The notes under the pieces: generated by a model
What the model was told of the DNA's origin: nothing
Databases searched by the model: none
The model's input: only the letters and a program-made list of their open reading frames with translations
Translations under genes and position numbers: made by a program
Shown here: one piece after another, positions 15,522 through 22,045 of the stretch
Layout of the letters: every line of letters begins with the position of its first letter
How positions within the stretch are numbered: position 1 is the stretch's first letter
DNA from: an uncultured Oscillospiraceae bacterium
Lineage (GTDB): Bacteria; Bacillota; Clostridia; Oscillospirales; Oscillospiraceae
DNA: 64,000 bases
Assembly (NCBI GenBank): GCA_947630785.1
Contig: CANRIW010000002.1
Coordinates: forward strand, 1 to 64,000
Direction: 5' to 3'

Positions 15522-17936
15522 TTACCCCTGTTCCCCCCGCAGGAGGGCCAGAGTGCGCTGCTCCAGCCGGGTTAAATTCAGCTTGCGGTAGATGGCCGCC
15601 GCCTGGGTGTAGCAGCCCTTGGCCCGCTCCTCGTCGCCCATGGCACGGCAGATGTCGCCCCGCATCACCAGGTTGCCGGCGAACCCTGAGCTTTCGCTGC
15701 CTTCTTTGGATACCAAAACATCCTGTGCCTGCTGATTCAGGGCCAATGCCTGTTCAAAATGTCCCCGCTTCATCTGAATCTGTCCCAGGGCATCATTGCA
15801 GGAACAGATAGACCATTTGTCATCGATCTCAGAAAACAGGGACACGGCCCGGTCCATGTGCTGCTCGCTCTCGTCCAGGTCGCCATTCATGTACAAAGAG
15901 CGGGACAAATGGTATTCCGCCCAGCCCAGGTAGTGCTGCCAGGGCGAGCGGGGGAACCGCTCCGCCAGCAGGACCGACTGCCTTCCGTATTCAATGGAGG
16001 TCTGATAGTCTCCCAGATCACGGCTGGACTCCGTCAGGCGCCACAAAAGGCTGACGCATATGCCGCCGATCTCCGGGGTCAGCTCATCCGTCGGAATGTC
16101 CCTGATCAGAGAATACCCTTCCTGTGCGATGTCCCGGCACGCTTCCGGATAACCCAGCATCATCTTGGAATGGGCGATCTGATTGTATGCGAACAGCTTG
16201 TCATACAGATCCTGCGCTGTGGCAAGCAGTTCCTGATAAAGACTGATGCTGATCTCAAACAGGCTCAGATTTTTGCTGGCCTGAGCCCTTGCAAGCAGTA
16301 CCTTTCGCCGCATCGGGTGATCGGCCGGGAGCCTCGCAAAGGCGGCCTCGGCCATATCCAGAAGCCGCAGCTTCATCTCGTATTCCGTGTTGAACGAGTA
16401 ACCGATCGTATCGATCATGGTCTCCAAAAACTTGTTGCAGCAGTCCGGGTCGGCGGCCAGCTGCTCCTGGCACAGATCGGCCACCAGGGGGTGGAGGTGG
16501 ACCTCGTCGGTGGCCGGGTTGTGGATGACCCAGCTCTTTTTGATGAGCTCGTCGATGACGTCGAAGTCGTCCGCCCCGCACCAGTCGAAGAGAGTCTCCA
16601 CCCCGATGCCGCTCAGCGGCACAAGGATAAGATTCTTCAGCAGGTACTGCTCCTCCTCGCTGAGGGTGGACAGCCGGAAGACCTCTTTCAGCTGGCCGAA
16701 GATCATATCCGCCGCCTTCAAGTTTTCCCTCGCCATGTTTTCCGCGCCGCTTTTCAGCAGGGCGGCCATCTTCTCCGGCTGGATGCGCCGGTGCTGCATG
16801 GCCGACGCCACCAGCCGGATGCTCAGCGTGTGCCCGTTCAGCTGCCGGATGATGGCTTTCACCTGCTCCAGGGCGGCGGCGTCCAGCGTCCGGGTGTACT
16901 CCGCCCGGAACAGGGCCAGCAGCTCCGCCTCGTCGGTCATCTCGGTGACTTCCACCTCCGGCAGGCCCGTCCCCTCCTGATGATAACGGGTGGTGAACAG
17001 CACGGCATACCTCCCGGCGCAGAAGTCCTCCAGGTCCGGGTCCTCCGCCACGTCGAAGTTGTCAATGACCAGGAGGATACGCCGGTCGGCCAGCTCTTTC
17101 AGTACCCGCAGCTTCCGCCGGAAGTACGCCCGGTCGTCGTCCTCCGGGAAATCCGTGCGGCTCAGGCCCTGGATGGGGAAGGCGTAGTCGTTGACGACCG
17201 TCTGCTCCAGGCTCCCGGCGAAGGACACCCAGAGGATCACGTCATAATCGGCCTGATGCCGCTTGATATACATTTTGGCGATCTCGCTCTTGCCGATGCC
17301 CCCCATGCCCACCAGGAACATTTTATTCTCCGCTCCCGTGAGGGCGGAGTGGATGTCGGCCAGTTCCCGCTCCCGGCCCACGAAGTGCCCGTCCGGGTAG
17401 ACCATGGAGCCGGTGAGACGGTAGGTCTTCCCCTCCGGGGCGGCGGCCCCGCCCTGGGGCGCGGCAGTCTCCTCCGGGATGGTGACGGTCCGCCCGGCGC
17501 TCCGGCCCAGGATCGCCGAGAGCCGGTCCACCAGCTCCTGGACCCGCTGCACCTCCGGGGGCAGGCTCCCGTTCATGATGTGGATGCGTCCCAGGTAGTA
17601 GTACACGTCGTCGCTCAGCTGGCAGTCGTCGATGCGGAAGGGGAGAAGGGTGATGTCCTCGTGGTTTTTGAAGCGGTCGAAGGCGCAGTTGACCTCGTTG
17701 AGCACGTGGGCCGACAGATTGGACTGCTTGTTCAATATCAGGAGGAACACCCGGCAGGCCCGGATGGCCTCCACGATGGACTGGGCGTAGTTGGCCCCCA
17801 CGTTCCGGGGGGCGTACCAGCAGGAGATGCCCGCTCCCTCCAGGGCGGCGCAGATCTTCCGCACCGCATCCCCGGCGCTGTCGGTGTGGTAGCTGATAAA
17901 GACCTCGCGGGGCTCGCTCTGTGTATGTTCCGTCAT
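15522..17936 (-). CDS. TIR-NB-ARC-TPR STAND protein 1
   Basis: 804-aa NLR-like protein. Residues ~11-130 form a TIR domain (VFISYH, CWYAPRNV) with a candidate catalytic glutamate at Glu81 in HVLNEV, as in NAD-cleaving TIRs. Residues ~185-490 form an NB-ARC ATPase: P-loop GMGGIGKS (210-217), Walker B ILLVIDNFD (287-295), FTTR (314-317), a GLPL-like NGHTLSI and an MHD-like LHPLV. The C-terminal ~300 residues are TPR-type helical repeats suited to ligand sensing. Such STANDs are generally switches that oligomerise on a trigger and activate the TIR. It lies 33 bases after its paralogue in the same operon. Its TPR half has visibly lower GC than its front half. Confidence 0.9.
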   Translation of the reverse strand: MTEHTQSEPREVFISYHTDSAGDAVRKICAALEGAGISCWYAPRNVGANYAQSIVEAIRACRVFLLILNKQSNLSAHVLNEVNCAFDRFKNHEDITLLPFRIDDCQLSDDVYYYLGRIHIMNGSLPPEVQRVQELVDRLSAILGRSAGRTVTIPEETAAPQGGAAAPEGKTYRLTGSMVYPDGHFVGRERELADIHSALTGAENKMFLVGMGGIGKSEIAKMYIKRHQADYDVILWVSFAGSLEQTVVNDYAFPIQGLSRTDFPEDDDRAYFRRKLRVLKELADRRILLVIDNFDVAEDPDLEDFCAGRYAVLFTTRYHQEGTGLPEVEVTEMTDEAELLALFRAEYTRTLDAAALEQVKAIIRQLNGHTLSIRLVASAMQHRRIQPEKMAALLKSGAENMARENLKAADMIFGQLKEVFRLSTLSEEEQYLLKNLILVPLSGIGVETLFDWCGADDFDVIDELIKKSWVIHNPATDEVHLHPLVADLCQEQLAADPDCCNKFLETMIDTIGYSFNTEYEMKLRLLDMAEAAFARLPADHPMRRKVLLARAQASKNLSLFEISISLYQELLATAQDLYDKLFAYNQIAHSKMMLGYPEACRDIAQEGYSLIRDIPTDELTPEIGGICVSLLWRLTESSRDLGDYQTSIEYGRQSVLLAERFPRSPWQHYLGWAEYHLSRSLYMNGDLDESEQHMDRAVSLFSEIDDKWSICSCNDALGQIQMKRGHFEQALALNQQAQDVLVSKEGSESSGFAGNLVMRGDICRAMGDEERAKGCYTQAAAIYRKLNLTRLEQRTLALLRGEQG

Positions 17937-17969
17937 ACGGTGTCCCTCCTCAAAACAGGTGCGGCCCCT

Positions 17970-20471
17970 TCAGCGGGCCTGTCCCTCCAGGGCGTGCAGT
18001 TTCTCCCGGATCGTCCTGATCTGTTGATGCTCCGGGCCGAACAGCCCATCCAGGGCGTTGACGGCCGCCTCGTACTCCCCGGCGGCCTCGGCGATCCGGC
18101 CCATGGCGGCGTACACGTCGGCCAGACACTCCCGGTTGTCGATGGTGTCCGCGGCGATGTCCCCCCGCATTTGGCTGTTGATCTCCAGGGCCTGTTCCAG
18201 GTTCTCCGCGGCGGCCTTCCACTGCCCGGCGGCCTCCGCCCCGTCTCCCCGCTCCCGGGCCTCCAGACCCAGGTGGTAACGGCACACCCCCGCGTCATAG
18301 AGGCGGTACGCGTAGCCGGACCGGTTTTCCGTAAAATCGCTGTACTGCTCGTAGCTGTCCGTACACTCCAGCGCGCGGGCATAGTCCCCCGCCGCCTGAT
18401 ACATCCGGCCCAGCTCCATGTAGATCTCACCGAGCTGGTTCCGCGCAGTGGTGAGCGTCAACGCATGCCAGGGCTGATGGGCGAACTTCTCCTCCCCCCG
18501 CCGGACAGCCTCCTCCAGGCGCAGGCGGATCTCCAGTGACTTTTTGAGGTTCTCCTCCGCCAGCGCGAAGTCCTGCTCGTACTCCCAGGTATAGCAGCGG
18601 CCCACCTTTTCATAGGACATGGCCAGGTCCTCGCTCTCCTCACCGCCGGCGGCCAGCATACACCGCAGGCCCTCCTTGTACCAGGGGATGCTCTCCTTCG
18701 TGCGGCGGCCGTTGAAGCAGCAGCCGCCCACCGTCTTGGCCACGCAGCCCGTCTCCATGCTGGCCTCGCCGAACCGGCGCACACAGGCGTGGTAGAGCGT
18801 CTCGGCGTAGTGGATCGACTCGTCGAACCGGGCCACCTGCCAGAGATAGTTGGCCATCCCGTCGAACGCCTCCACATCGCCGCTGTCAAAGGGGGCGAAG
18901 TACCGCATCACGGCCAGAAGGCTCTCCACCACCGAGAGATTCTCGCTCACCGGCCGGAGCCAGGCGGAATAACAGAATTTTGCGATCTGCGCCAAAAGCC
19001 CCGCGCAGTTGTCCGCGTCCGGCTCCAGCACCGCGTGGACCACCTCGATGACCATGGGGTGGAGGGAAAGCCGCTTCTCCCGGCTCCGGTCCCGGCGGAC
19101 CCAGCTCTTCTGCTCCAGGGAGTTGACCACCTCGAAGGAGTCCAGCTCCGCCCACTCCCGGAACCACTTGGCGGGCACGCCGCCGATCCCCATGAGGGAC
19201 AGCTTGCGCAGCACGTCCTTTTCCTCCTCGGACAGGCCGCTGGTGGAGAACACCGCGCAGATGTGGCCGAAGGCCGTTTTGCGGCCCGCCCGCCCCGCCA
19301 CCGTCTCGGACTGGCTCTGGAGCTGCCCTTTTTTGAACAGCTCCAGCAGCTCCTCGCCGGTGAGCATGCTGGCGTCCATCTGCTTGGCCAGCAGTTCGAT
19401 GGTATAGGTGTGGTATTCGATGAGCTGGAACAGCTCCTGAAGGCAGGACCGGTCCTCCGGCTCCACCGGGGCGCCGTAGTTCTTCTCGAAGATGCGGAGC
19501 AGGGCCTTGGGGTCCCCGATGGCGGGCACCCGAACGGAGCAGCCCGTGTCATGCCGGAGGCGGGTGGTGAAGATGGCCCTGTACCGGCCGCTCAGGAAGA
19601 ACTCCAGGTCCGGGTCGTCCTCCACGTCGAAGTTGTCCACGATGAGCAGGGTGCGCTCCCCGGCCAGGGACTGGAACACCCGCCACTTCCGGGTGAAGAA
19701 CTCGTCCTCGGTCTCCTCCGGACGCTGGGAGACCCCGTCGATGACGATGGCGCCGGGGTCGCAGACCAGATTTTTCAGGCTGCCGCCGTAGGTGACGAAC
19801 AGCACGTCGTCGTAGTCGTCCTTGTTCCGCAGGGCGTACTGCTTGGCCAGCTCGCTCTTTCCGATGCCCCCTACGCCCTCCAGGAACAGCACCCGCTCGC
19901 CCTCCCGAAAACAGGCGGCGATCTCCTCCAGAAGGTCGTCCCGGCCGTCGAAGATGGTCCGGGCCTGGGGCGGGTTGGAGCGCAGGCGGTACTCCTCCCG
20001 GGCCTTCGCCGGAGCGGCCGGCTTCCCGGCCGCCGGGGAGGCGGAGGGCTGGCGGCCCAGCAGGAACAGCACCTTGTCGGTCAGCTCGCCGATGCGCTCG
20101 TCCATGGGGGGCCTGATGGCGTCGATCCAGTGCATCCGGCTGATGTAATACTCCGCGTCGGGGGGCATCTCCAGGTCCTCGTCCGCGATGTGGAAGGGCA
20201 CGATGGTGACGGACTCCTTCCGGCCCAGCCGGCTGGTGACGATGTTCAGCTCGTTGAGCACCTGGGGGGACTCGGCGGCGGGCTGGTTGAGCATCAGAAT
20301 GAACACGGAGCAGGCCTTGATGGCCTGCACGATGCTGCCGGCGTAGGAGCCCACCACATCCCGGGGGGCGTACCAGCAGCGGATGCCCACGCCCTCCAGG
20401 CGGTTGACCACCGCCTCCACCACGGCGCGGGACGAGTTGGTGTGATAGCTGATAAAGACGTCGATCTCCAC
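17970..20471 (-). CDS. TIR-NB-ARC-TPR STAND protein 2
   Basis: 833 aa from a GTG at 20471, preferred because AGGAGG lies 7 bases upstream; the ATG at 20513 has no such site. TIR domain ~4-110 (VFISYHTNS, CWYAPRDVV, candidate catalytic Glu74 in VLNEL). NB-ARC ~175-480 with P-loop GVGGIGKS (199-206), Walker B TLLIVDNFDVEDDPDLEFF and MHD-like LHPMV. The C-terminal TPR region includes LAEENLKKSLEIRLRL and LEQALEINSQM. It is a clear paralogue of the protein encoded at 15.5-17.9 kb, but the sensor repeats differ strongly, so the pair may read two triggers or work together. It is first in the operon, behind the promoter at 20531-20559. Confidence 0.9.
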   Translation of the reverse strand: MEIDVFISYHTNSSRAVVEAVVNRLEGVGIRCWYAPRDVVGSYAGSIVQAIKACSVFILMLNQPAAESPQVLNELNIVTSRLGRKESVTIVPFHIADEDLEMPPDAEYYISRMHWIDAIRPPMDERIGELTDKVLFLLGRQPSASPAAGKPAAPAKAREEYRLRSNPPQARTIFDGRDDLLEEIAACFREGERVLFLEGVGGIGKSELAKQYALRNKDDYDDVLFVTYGGSLKNLVCDPGAIVIDGVSQRPEETEDEFFTRKWRVFQSLAGERTLLIVDNFDVEDDPDLEFFLSGRYRAIFTTRLRHDTGCSVRVPAIGDPKALLRIFEKNYGAPVEPEDRSCLQELFQLIEYHTYTIELLAKQMDASMLTGEELLELFKKGQLQSQSETVAGRAGRKTAFGHICAVFSTSGLSEEEKDVLRKLSLMGIGGVPAKWFREWAELDSFEVVNSLEQKSWVRRDRSREKRLSLHPMVIEVVHAVLEPDADNCAGLLAQIAKFCYSAWLRPVSENLSVVESLLAVMRYFAPFDSGDVEAFDGMANYLWQVARFDESIHYAETLYHACVRRFGEASMETGCVAKTVGGCCFNGRRTKESIPWYKEGLRCMLAAGGEESEDLAMSYEKVGRCYTWEYEQDFALAEENLKKSLEIRLRLEEAVRRGEEKFAHQPWHALTLTTARNQLGEIYMELGRMYQAAGDYARALECTDSYEQYSDFTENRSGYAYRLYDAGVCRYHLGLEARERGDGAEAAGQWKAAAENLEQALEINSQMRGDIAADTIDNRECLADVYAAMGRIAEAAGEYEAAVNALDGLFGPEHQQIRTIREKLHALEGQAR

Positions 20472-20530
20472 GACGATCCCTCCTGCTCTTAGGCGCCTCC
20501 ACCGGGCGCGCATTTGATGTACTGCGTTAA

Positions 20531-20559
20531 ATTATAGCATGTCCCGCGGGACCCTTCAA
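20531..20559 (-). promoter_or_regulatory. promoter of the TIR-STAND operon with a palindrome in its spacer
   Basis: On the minus strand TTGAAG (20559-20554), 17 bp, TATAAT (20536-20531). The spacer contains a perfect 12-bp palindrome GTCCCGCGGGAC (20541-20552), well placed for a repressor that keeps the operon silent. Confidence 0.7.
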
Positions 20560-20571
20560 GAGCATTATGAC

Positions 20572-20600
20572 TTGTCTGACCCTCCGCGGTGTGATATGAT
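20572..20600 (+). promoter_or_regulatory. promoter of the RyR-channel gene
   Basis: TTGTCT (20572-20577), 17 bp, TATGAT (20595-20600), followed by GGAGGG and the ATG at 20627. Its -35 box lies 12 bp from that of the divergent STAND promoter, so one bound regulator could affect both. Confidence 0.65.
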
Positions 20601-20626
20601 ATCCACAGTGAAACGGAGGGATCGTT

Positions 20627-22045
20627 ATGAAGCGTTCCGCGCGATGGGCAAGACTCCTGCTCCTGCTCCCCCTGGTCATGGGCGTGTGCGGTTTCGTGTT
20701 CCTGGAGGGGACGCCCCTCCTGGACGCCCTGTTCAAAAGCGTGACCATGTACGTCCTCAACTTCGGGGACACCCCGCCCAACCCCCTGGTGGAGGCCGCC
20801 CGCTGGACGGCCCCTCTGGCCACGGCCAGCGGCGTGGCGCTGGCGGTCAGCTCCCTGCGGGAGTGGGCGTCCGCCCGCTGGAAATACCTGCGGGGCGGCA
20901 GCGTGGCCGTGTACGGCCCGGAGGAGGAGAAGGCCCCCATCCTGGCCCAGCTGGGCCGCCGGGGCATCGACGGGCGCGGCGCTTTTTTCAAGGCGGACCG
21001 GTACATCCTGCTGGACGGCGAGCGGGAGAATTTCGCCTTTTACGAGGCCCACGCGGACCGGCTCCGGGGCCATCGGGTCTACATCCGCTCAGAGCTCCCC
21101 GCTCAGAGCGTCTCCCGGCCGGAGCTGAAGCTGTTCTGTCCGGAGGAGATCGCCGCCCGCCTGTACTGGCGGGAGCGGGACCTCTATTCCATCTGGAAGG
21201 GCACCTCCGGCACGGCGCGGATCGTCCTGCTGGGTTTCGGCCGGCTGGGGGAGGAGCTGGTGAGCCAGGGGCTGCAGAACAACATCTTCTCCCCGGAGCA
21301 GCGCGTGGAGTACCACGTCTTCGGCGACTGCGCCCGGTTCCTGGCCTCCCACACCAGCCTGTCCATGATCTCCGACCCGGTGGTGGGCCACGACGAGCCC
21401 TGGTTCCGGGCGCTGCCCCTGCTGGAGGAGGCCGACCTGGTGCTGGTGCTCCGGCAGGAGGACCAGCCCGCCCTGCTCCAGGCCCTGCTCGCCGCCACCC
21501 TGCGGCGGGAGATCGACGTGTTCTCCGCCGGGGATCCGGAGCTGGACCTTCTGGCCCAGCGGGAGCGGCTGCGGCCCTTCCCCTGGCGGGACCGGGCCCG
21601 GCAGCTCCCCTATCTGATGGACGACGTGCTGGACCGGCGGGCCAAGCGCATCAACCTGCGGTACAGCCATCTGTACGAGGGCGTGGCGGAGAACGATGAG
21701 AATATGGAGAAGGAGTGGGCCGCGCTGGACGCCTTTACCCGCTACTCCAACATCAGCGCGGCGGACTACCATGAGCTGCGGCTGAAGCTCATGGATGCCC
21801 AGGGCCTTCCCCGGGACCCCGGGGCCCTGTCCCCGGAGGACATGGAGCGGCTGGCGGAGCTGGAACACATCCGCTGGTGCCGCTATCACTTCCTGAACAA
21901 CTGGCGGCCGGGCAGGCCGGAAAACGGGAAGGCGAAGGACCCCGCCCGCCGCGTCCACACCCTGCTGTGCCCTTACGGCGACCTCCCGGAGGCGGAAAAA
22001 GAAAAGGACCGGGAGAACATCCGCATCCTTCTCTCCCTGGACTGA
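20627..22045 (+). CDS. two-helix channel-like protein with TrkA/RCK-type domains and C-terminal RyR domain
   Basis: 472 aa. Two hydrophobic helices (~8-26 and ~61-77) flank LLDALFKSVTMYVLNFGD (31-48), which has the spacing of a potassium-channel pore helix and filter, but with LNFGD instead of T-x-GYGD. Residues ~90-170 (SVAVYGPEEEK) and ~196-310 (IVLLGFGRLGEEL, a G-x-G-x-x-G nucleotide loop at 203-208) look like two tandem Rossmann domains of the TrkA/RCK kind. Residues ~405-470 fit the RyR domain: E413-H414-x2-W417, NNWRPG, CPYGDLPEAEKEKDR. RCK domains gate channels by nucleotide binding, and bacterial RyR domains are predicted ligand sensors. It is divergent from the TIR-STAND operon, which suggests it responds to a TIR product. 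Confidence 0.8.
   Translation: MKRSARWARLLLLLPLVMGVCGFVFLEGTPLLDALFKSVTMYVLNFGDTPPNPLVEAARWTAPLATASGVALAVSSLREWASARWKYLRGGSVAVYGPEEEKAPILAQLGRRGIDGRGAFFKADRYILLDGERENFAFYEAHADRLRGHRVYIRSELPAQSVSRPELKLFCPEEIAARLYWRERDLYSIWKGTSGTARIVLLGFGRLGEELVSQGLQNNIFSPEQRVEYHVFGDCARFLASHTSLSMISDPVVGHDEPWFRALPLLEEADLVLVLRQEDQPALLQALLAATLRREIDVFSAGDPELDLLAQRERLRPFPWRDRARQLPYLMDDVLDRRAKRINLRYSHLYEGVAENDENMEKEWAALDAFTRYSNISAADYHELRLKLMDAQGLPRDPGALSPEDMERLAELEHIRWCRYHFLNNWRPGRPENGKAKDPARRVHTLLCPYGDLPEAEKEKDRENIRILLSLD

Follow-up and report, generated by a model that had tools for sequence, protein, structure and literature searches.

Two tandem genes for TIR-NB-ARC-TPR proteins of the STAND type, P0001 and P0002, lie divergent from a gene for a membrane protein that ends in an RyR domain, P0003, on contig CANRIW010000002.1 of an uncultured gut bacterium of the Oscillospiraceae (assembly GCA_947630785.1). 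We analysed positions 1 to 64,000 of this contig, and call that whole 64,000-nucleotide stretch the window. The locus raises the question of whether these three genes form a single system and, if so, what an RyR domain on a channel-like protein does beside TIR genes. We favour, with moderate confidence, a two-part Thoeris-like cassette: its TIR sensors would make an ADP-ribose signal, and this signal would gate an RyR-RCK channel. The initial annotation of the window had also proposed such signalling, with a membrane pore as its output. By analogy with Thoeris and with phage RyR-domain proteins (PMC13232231), the TIR-NB-ARC-TPR proteins would act as intracellular sensors whose TPR/STAND part detects an invader, and detection would lead to their oligomerisation. 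The TIR domains would then convert NAD+ to an ADP-ribose-type signal, probably a cyclic ADP-ribose (cADPR) isomer. Binding of this signal to the RyR domain of the membrane protein would shift its RCK gating ring and open a cation-permeable pore; the membrane gradient would be lost and the infected cell stopped. Cation selectivity is likewise proposed, and the cassette probably serves defence against viruses (phages).

The channel-like protein and the TIR-STAND pair

P0003 (472 aa; 20627..22045, plus strand) divides into three parts, all encoded on the plus strand. Residues 9-80 (20651..20866) are predicted to form a two-helix pore with a P-loop, whose filter region, MYVLNFGDTPPN, has diverged from the TVGYGD of RCK-gated K+ channels and reads VLNFGD. 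Residues about 92-330 (20900..21616) take the form of tandem RCK/TrkA-like Rossmann domains in the predicted fold, which has the fold of an RCK gating ring, and residues 406-468 (21842..22030) are an RyR (PF02026) domain that scores above the curated Pfam cut-off and contains His414, Trp417, His444 and Asp461. Structural matches of the predicted fold were MthK, GsuK, the CASTOR/DMI1 ring and TrkA, and the sequence match to MthK was weak. Library scans at E up to 0.1 returned RyR alone from Pfam, were blank for NCBIfam and PADLOC, and found no SIR2-SLOG or macro domain. The canonical TVGYGD filter was present in 15 of 16 rows of distant K+-type relatives, and the predicted model shows P0003 as a pore of the K+-channel type whose filter has diverged. 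The two membrane helices, tandem Rossmann domains and C-terminal RyR domain described by the initial annotation were thus borne out by domain search and predicted fold.

The annotation's account of the divergent pair, as tandem TIR-NB-ARC-TPR genes with intact P-loops and candidate catalytic glutamates, held as well. P0001 (804 aa, assigned by domain search; 15522..17936, minus strand) and P0002 (about 833 aa from the GTG at 20471; 17970..20471, minus strand) are separated by 33 bp, and the channel gene diverges from them on the plus strand across a 155-bp intergenic region (20472..20626) that, on our reading of the sequence, is flanked on both sides by GGAGG-type ribosome sites. The two proteins are 37% identical across about 500 residues and share the P-loop GxGGxGKS in an NB-ARC domain that scores above the Pfam cut-off in P0001 and below it in P0002. 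Their TIR_2 domains (17607..17903 in P0001 and 20112..20459 in P0002, both minus strand) contain the candidate catalytic residues Glu81 and Glu73 (Glu74 with the start codon counted), respectively; this position is E in 37 of 40 aligned TIR rows.

A3, a profile of seven TIR-NB-ARC-TPR proteins of the P0001/P0002 type, matched the plant TIR-NLR Roq1 across TIR and NB-ARC (E 5e-6), ranked under many TPR chains. Foldseek matches of the P0002 model were a STAND-TPR protein (6mfv), RPP1, CED-4, Apaf-1 and Avs3, with low TM-scores, and a further alignment match list for P0002 was dominated by TPR proteins and carried little information on TIR or NB-ARC. PADLOC gave weak or no matches for the three window proteins, among them a weak ThsB match of P0001 (E 0.015), and one relative's TIR matched PF08937 ThsB_TIR under the cut-off. 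The NCBIfam name FxSxx_TPR was rejected for the TIR-STANDs, with scores far under its cut-off. A third TIR_2 match of the window genome (G000:C6:3678-3956, in a 704-aa frame) lies on a contig other than that of the RyR gene. Long plus-strand open frames run antisense to the TIR-STAND genes at 15759-18539 (926 aa) and 18789-20492 (567 aa), which base composition probably explains.

Recurrent association of RyR and TIR genes

To place the window among its relatives, we searched 400 genomes of its family with A1, a profile from an alignment of 15 rows (P0003 and 14 relatives), and found an RyR channel in 46. The 63 listed places were merged by us into 47 loci, with 16 surplus same-locus rows removed. 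TIR_2 lay within 6 kb at 23 of these 47 loci. Uniform placement predicts 0.42 such loci, an expectation that is too low because defence genes cluster anyway, and the highest count in 200,000 simulations was 6. TIR counts rest on a second local TIR profile or on Pfam TIR_2, the first local version having missed divergent TIRs beside paired K+ channels. At the level of whole genomes, any TIR_2 was present in 36 of the 46 RyR-positive genomes and in 19 of the 21 behind the first loci. Among good-quality genomes, with completeness of 90% or more and contamination of 5% or less, TIR_2 occurred in 28 of 32 with an RyR channel versus 67 of 245 in the family, the latter including RyR-positive ones; a hand-counted split gave 27/31 versus 42/219 (Fisher p 1e-13), treating the 219 as channel-free and taking no account of kinship. 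A phylum-wide search with profile A4 matched 52 of 398 genomes, mostly by pore-only matches to other K+ channels, and four besides the window's reached the RyR end. Four RyR loci followed outside the family had TIR neighbours in two cases (L070, L072), a DUF4062-TPR neighbour in one (L073) and neither in the last (L071).

We resolved the association by class using 40 of the 46 non-window family loci and three fetched later (G407, G150 and G165 are absent, and L049, where the local RyR profile matched nothing, is excluded). Diverged-pore channels of the window type had a TIR gene nearby at 10 of 21 distinct loci (window, L002, L003, L006, L007, L008, L009, L010, L024, L025), and at L012 a DUF4062 gene stood in its place. 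The TIR partners were STAND-TPR proteins in four cases and TPR, TPR/Sel1 or MORN proteins in five, the L025 partner being unscanned. Where the initial annotation had cast TIR-STANDs as the partner, the partner is therefore TIR in general, with TIR-STAND at 4, other TIR at 6, DUF4062 at 1 and neither at 10 of the 21 loci. Paired K+-channel loci had a TIR gene at 11 of 19; at L031, L035, L037, L039 and L040 the two genes share 4-11 nt, as judged from mechanically chosen starts, and at L033 and L034, where the nearer TIR lacks the Glu, the distance is 2.3-2.5 kb. No TIR was found near the five stand-alone K+ channels (L041, L043-L045, L047). Other RyR architectures had one at 11 of 18 loci, a count biased upward because L066-L068 were fetched for a known nearby TIR and L064 for its TIR-STAND. 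One locus encodes a fusion, L062:8309-11749, a single 1146-aa open reading frame (ORF) with TIR_2, an NPHP3-type NTPase, TPR and a C-terminal RyR domain. Across loci, TIR partners differ in both sensor part and gene orientation.

The RyR domain also occurs on proteins of other kinds. Many of the RyR calls among the 87 ORFs counted below come from the local profile alone, as for the 585-aa membrane proteins of L054 and L064, the HD-like protein of L008 and the K+-channel partner L037:5837-7750, for all four of which Pfam was blank. Of six RyR proteins (L008:7621-9609, L025:6082-8073, L048:6124-8172, L051:6345-8036, L054:9997-11724, L067:7009-9036), most contain an HD-like motif, HRDHY...HDIGYPFE or a variant of it. 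Scans of L008 and L048 gave no convincing Pfam match for that part, and a TIR gene adjoins all six except L051. AAA+ ATPases fused to a C-terminal RyR domain were seen at L058:4471-6855, L059:867-2825 and L070:4312-6504 (Pfam AAA in L059 and L070, L058 by its P-loop motif), with a TIR gene adjoining L058 and L070. A compact cassette at L068:4699-8820 comprises a membrane-type RyR protein, a TIR protein and a 101-aa stand-alone RyR protein; other stand-alone RyR proteins of about 100 aa occur, and a divergent 119-aa one lies 243 bp from the L062 fusion. In two genomes a protein with a VGVTGHRPGG motif adjoins the RyR protein (L072:8670-10472, with a weak DUF4231 match, and L073:5986-7773, unscanned). 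NUDIX-type genes stand beside L005 (Pfam) and L011 (same local family), 2 of 21 loci, and were considered as signal-degrading partners.

The locus L002 (same contig as G410:C38), from another genus, encodes a channel 91% and a TIR-STAND 90% identical to those of the window, and an integrase-type ORF, truncated by the contig end, adjoins the channel. Identity to the window's nagB is 51-63% for the copies in eight other genomes of its own genus, paralogues being possible among them. These comparisons suggest recent transfer of the cassette. Both the 91% identical channel beside an integrase gene in another genus and the patchy distribution over the family argue against a channel for K+ housekeeping or stress that plays no part in defence, which we regard as highly improbable even though TIR genes are absent nearby at 8 of 19 paired K+-channel loci and at the degenerate-pocket loci L027-L029, L041, L043-L045 and L047.

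The reciprocal view begins from the TIR-STANDs, of which we found 10 full-length homologous genes in seven genomes, with an RyR gene adjoining them in five (G000, G410, G257, G178, G154). At L054, the locus of G257, the protein resembling P0001 (54% identical) comes after an RyR membrane protein of a different kind, and an HD-like RyR protein precedes a second TIR-STAND. In G043 the TIR-STAND has no adjacent RyR gene and the RyR gene lies elsewhere in the genome.

The candidate ligand pocket and rival roles

The sections of PMC13232231 on which we drew report that phage RyR-domain (PF02026) proteins, the RyDEPs, bind 2'cADPR and 3'cADPR, that one cleaves them, and that four residues (H75, W78, H100, D117) contact the ligand in a RyDEP-3'cADPR complex. 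These correspond to His414, Trp417, His444 and Asp461 of P0003, a matching based on spacing (3 for the first pair, 17 for the last pair) and on alignment to the Bacteroides/human RyR chain 6uhi, with RyDEP's own sequence outside the alignment. All four were invariant in A1 and in A2, an alignment of 12 rows that has P0003, L007 and L012 in common with A1. Over 87 RyR ORFs the counts were H 87, W 79, H 70 and D 71, after removal of two duplicate loci (the duplicate L038 was kept), and some of the D gaps, those of the HD-like class among them, look like ends of the alignment. Given the reported binding by phage RyR-domain proteins (PMC13232231, same sections), a cADPR-type ligand for P0003 is plausible.

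Eight channel loci of the survey (G127, G243, G193, G143, G261, G299, G067, G398) had lost pocket residues, where G398 is scored on a partly unaligned end and G406 (L042), with Q at the Asp column, was scored intact. TIR_2 lay within 6 kb of 0/8 degraded-pocket channels versus 13/18 intact ones (p 8e-4), and any TIR_2 was present in 2/8 versus 17/17 genomes (p 1.6e-4); this comparison was picked post hoc and is confined to channels, and its p-values overstate independence because the eight stem from four genera. Of the six TIR-free degraded-pocket genomes, some are incomplete (G127, G193 and G243, 71-89%). L027, L028 and L029 are P0003 relatives of one genus with pocket residues lost, and no TIR_2 was found in their genomes, which are 71-89% complete.

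The same pocket bears on whether P0003 senses a common adenine nucleotide (ATP, ADP, NAD+ or ADP-ribose) and responds to TIR-caused energy or NAD+ collapse with no dedicated cyclic signal. RyR3 Repeat12 structures contain ATP or AMP-PCP and GsuK, a structural match of P0003, binds ADP and NAD (both by entry titles), and DUF4062 proteins, neighbours at L012 and L073, belong to a family reported in the part of PMC13174449 used here as NADases yielding plain ADP-ribose. We nonetheless consider this alternative distinctly unlikely, as the pocket residues are those contacting 3'cADPR in RyDEP (PMC13232231, in part) and decay in channels where TIRs are not nearby.

Beyond the low placement expectation noted above, several observations weigh against a dedicated TIR-RyR cassette. 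Ten diverged-pore loci have neither TIR nor DUF4062 nearby (L004, L005, L011, L013, L014, L015, L026, L027, L028, L029), several of them stopping at contig edges (L013 is a 3-kb contig and L026 stops 57 bp past the gene) and three having degraded pockets. Three non-channel RyR proteins that are TIR-adjacent or TIR-fused, those of L054 (second), L056 and L062, carry T, N or S where P0003 has His444, and the RyR protein of L058 carries F in place of Trp417; from these alignments pocket and TIR appear not to be coupled in every RyR class, the link being looser outside channels. No defence island surrounds the window genes: the cassette lies between nagB and a hydrolase gene, and the 10 window neighbours tested, among which the initial annotation had suggested looking for defence genes, gave no PADLOC match and look like sugar-phosphotransferase (PTS), nagB, hydrolase and CoA-transferase genes. 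G306, of the same genus, has three tandem TIR genes (L065:5208-13098), two of them orthologous to P0001 and P0002, and its genome gave no RyR channel match in the A1 search, making it a natural case of sensors without an RyR channel effector. The proposal that TIR and RyR/RCK genes form one system is strongly supported by gene association, TIR-RyR fusion and pocket conservation, and qualified by G306.

G306, together with the unpaired TIR-STAND of G043, is what one would expect if TIR-STANDs acted alone through NAD+ depletion, with the RyR channel an independent gene sharing the same islands; direct depletion is known for some bacterial TIR proteins, such as TIR-STING (PMC13142454, in the part consulted). 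The small gene overlaps, the fusion, the recurrence over TIR architectures and orientations and the pocket decay in channels without nearby TIRs all speak against this, and we judge it improbable. The other strong rival is a brake, in which the RyR-RCK protein binds or hydrolyses the TIR product as RyDEP does, guarding against accidental TIR activity or ending the response, while its pore would serve just for anchoring or for coupling to the membrane. P0003 might degrade the signal, as the catalytic RyDEP residues H75 and D117 have counterparts in the invariant His414 and Asp461; an RyR-domain hydrolase and sponges are reported (PMC13232231), and in the window the channel is encoded divergently, outside the operon of the TIR genes. 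Set against this, the DyoEdafos protein alone cleaved, the other homologues assayed in those sections not doing so despite high conservation (PMC13232231), the canonical K+ filter kept by 15 of 16 distant relatives would be needless for a sponge, and other TIR-adjacent RyR proteins bear HD-like or AAA+ parts, as swappable effectors would. We accordingly hold a brake to be unlikely, and favour the effector role of the RyR protein within the two-part cassette because relatives keep the K+ filter and the channel is swapped for HD-like or AAA+ parts.

RyR-like genes were also seen in a phage collection, for example in Pseudomonas F116-like phages, Cellulophaga phi38:1 and Aeromonas Aeh1. A total of 291 phage records matched RyR at E up to 10, many probably by chance, and such genes agree with the existence of RyR-based anti-TIR proteins.

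Known systems and the wider role of the RyR domain

A broader reading, to which we give somewhat less than an even chance, is that in Clostridia and relatives the RyR domain serves generally as the receptor for cyclic ADP-ribose signals made by TIRs. As a module it would be fused to interchangeable effectors (canonical RyR-K+ channels, diverged-pore channels, HD-like, AAA+ and TIR-STAND proteins), its TIR or DUF4062 sensor partners being interchangeable too, and bacteria would have an independent counterpart of the animal cADPR-ryanodine-receptor link, perhaps even its source. If so, TIR-signal-gated ion channels would join bacterial immune effectors, and bacteria would defend themselves with the same domain that phages reportedly turn against Thoeris. 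We found no description of TIR-linked RyR channels in the literature searched (texts including PMC9503650, PMC7159879, PMC3482391, PMC13174449, PMC13142454 and PMC12948488), coverage that ends short of Yirmiya 2025 bioRxiv and Burroughs 2015 NAR.

Thoeris types I and II (TIR protein ThsB and effector ThsA) are the nearest comparison, since there too a TIR gene adjoins the gene of an effector with a nucleotide-binding module, as found in the window. Thoeris signals are cADPR isomers or His-ADPR, according to the parts of PMC13232231 and PMC12948488 used here. The window effector differs, combining RyR and RCK with a channel pore where Thoeris effectors have SIR2-SLOG or a macrodomain, and the likely sensor is the STAND/TPR part of the TIR protein itself; because a SIR2-SLOG or macro effector is lacking, we do not file the cassette as Thoeris. 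RyDEP proteins share with P0003 a PF02026 domain in which all four ligand contacts have matching residues, but are phage anti-defence proteins (PMC13232231, in part), whereas the window domain ends a bacterial membrane channel beside TIR genes. The Swarozyc and DUF4062 TIR-like NADases (PMC13174449, in part) have DUF4062 in common with the proteins adjoining the RyR protein at L012 and L073, although the window has true TIR_2 domains; a term look-up in the text of PMC13174449 found neither "RyR" nor "channel".

The C-terminal repeats of plant TIR-NLRs are leucine-rich repeats (LRR). The window proteins resemble plant TIR-NLRs (RPP1, Roq1) and Avs/STAND receptors in their TIR-NB-ARC order and C-terminal repeat part, but have TPR instead of LRR, and their partner is a bacterial channel. 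RCK-gated K+ channels (MthK, GsuK, the CASTOR/DMI1 ring) and TrkA share the predicted two-helix pore and tandem RCK-like ring of P0003, which differs from them in lacking the TVGYGD filter and in its added RyR domain.

It has long been asked whether ryanodine receptors are a direct target of cyclic ADP-ribose and which of their domains would be involved. Animal ryanodine receptors likewise carry a Repeat12-like domain on a cation-channel-like protein, and cADPR is implicated in their function in the sections of PMC13232231 cited above; no shared part other than this domain was found, the pore and ring of P0003 resembling those of prokaryotic K+ channels. A bacterial channel of compact size that bears a Repeat12-like domain and is encoded beside TIRs that may make its ligand renders the cADPR-ryanodine-receptor question testable in one small protein.

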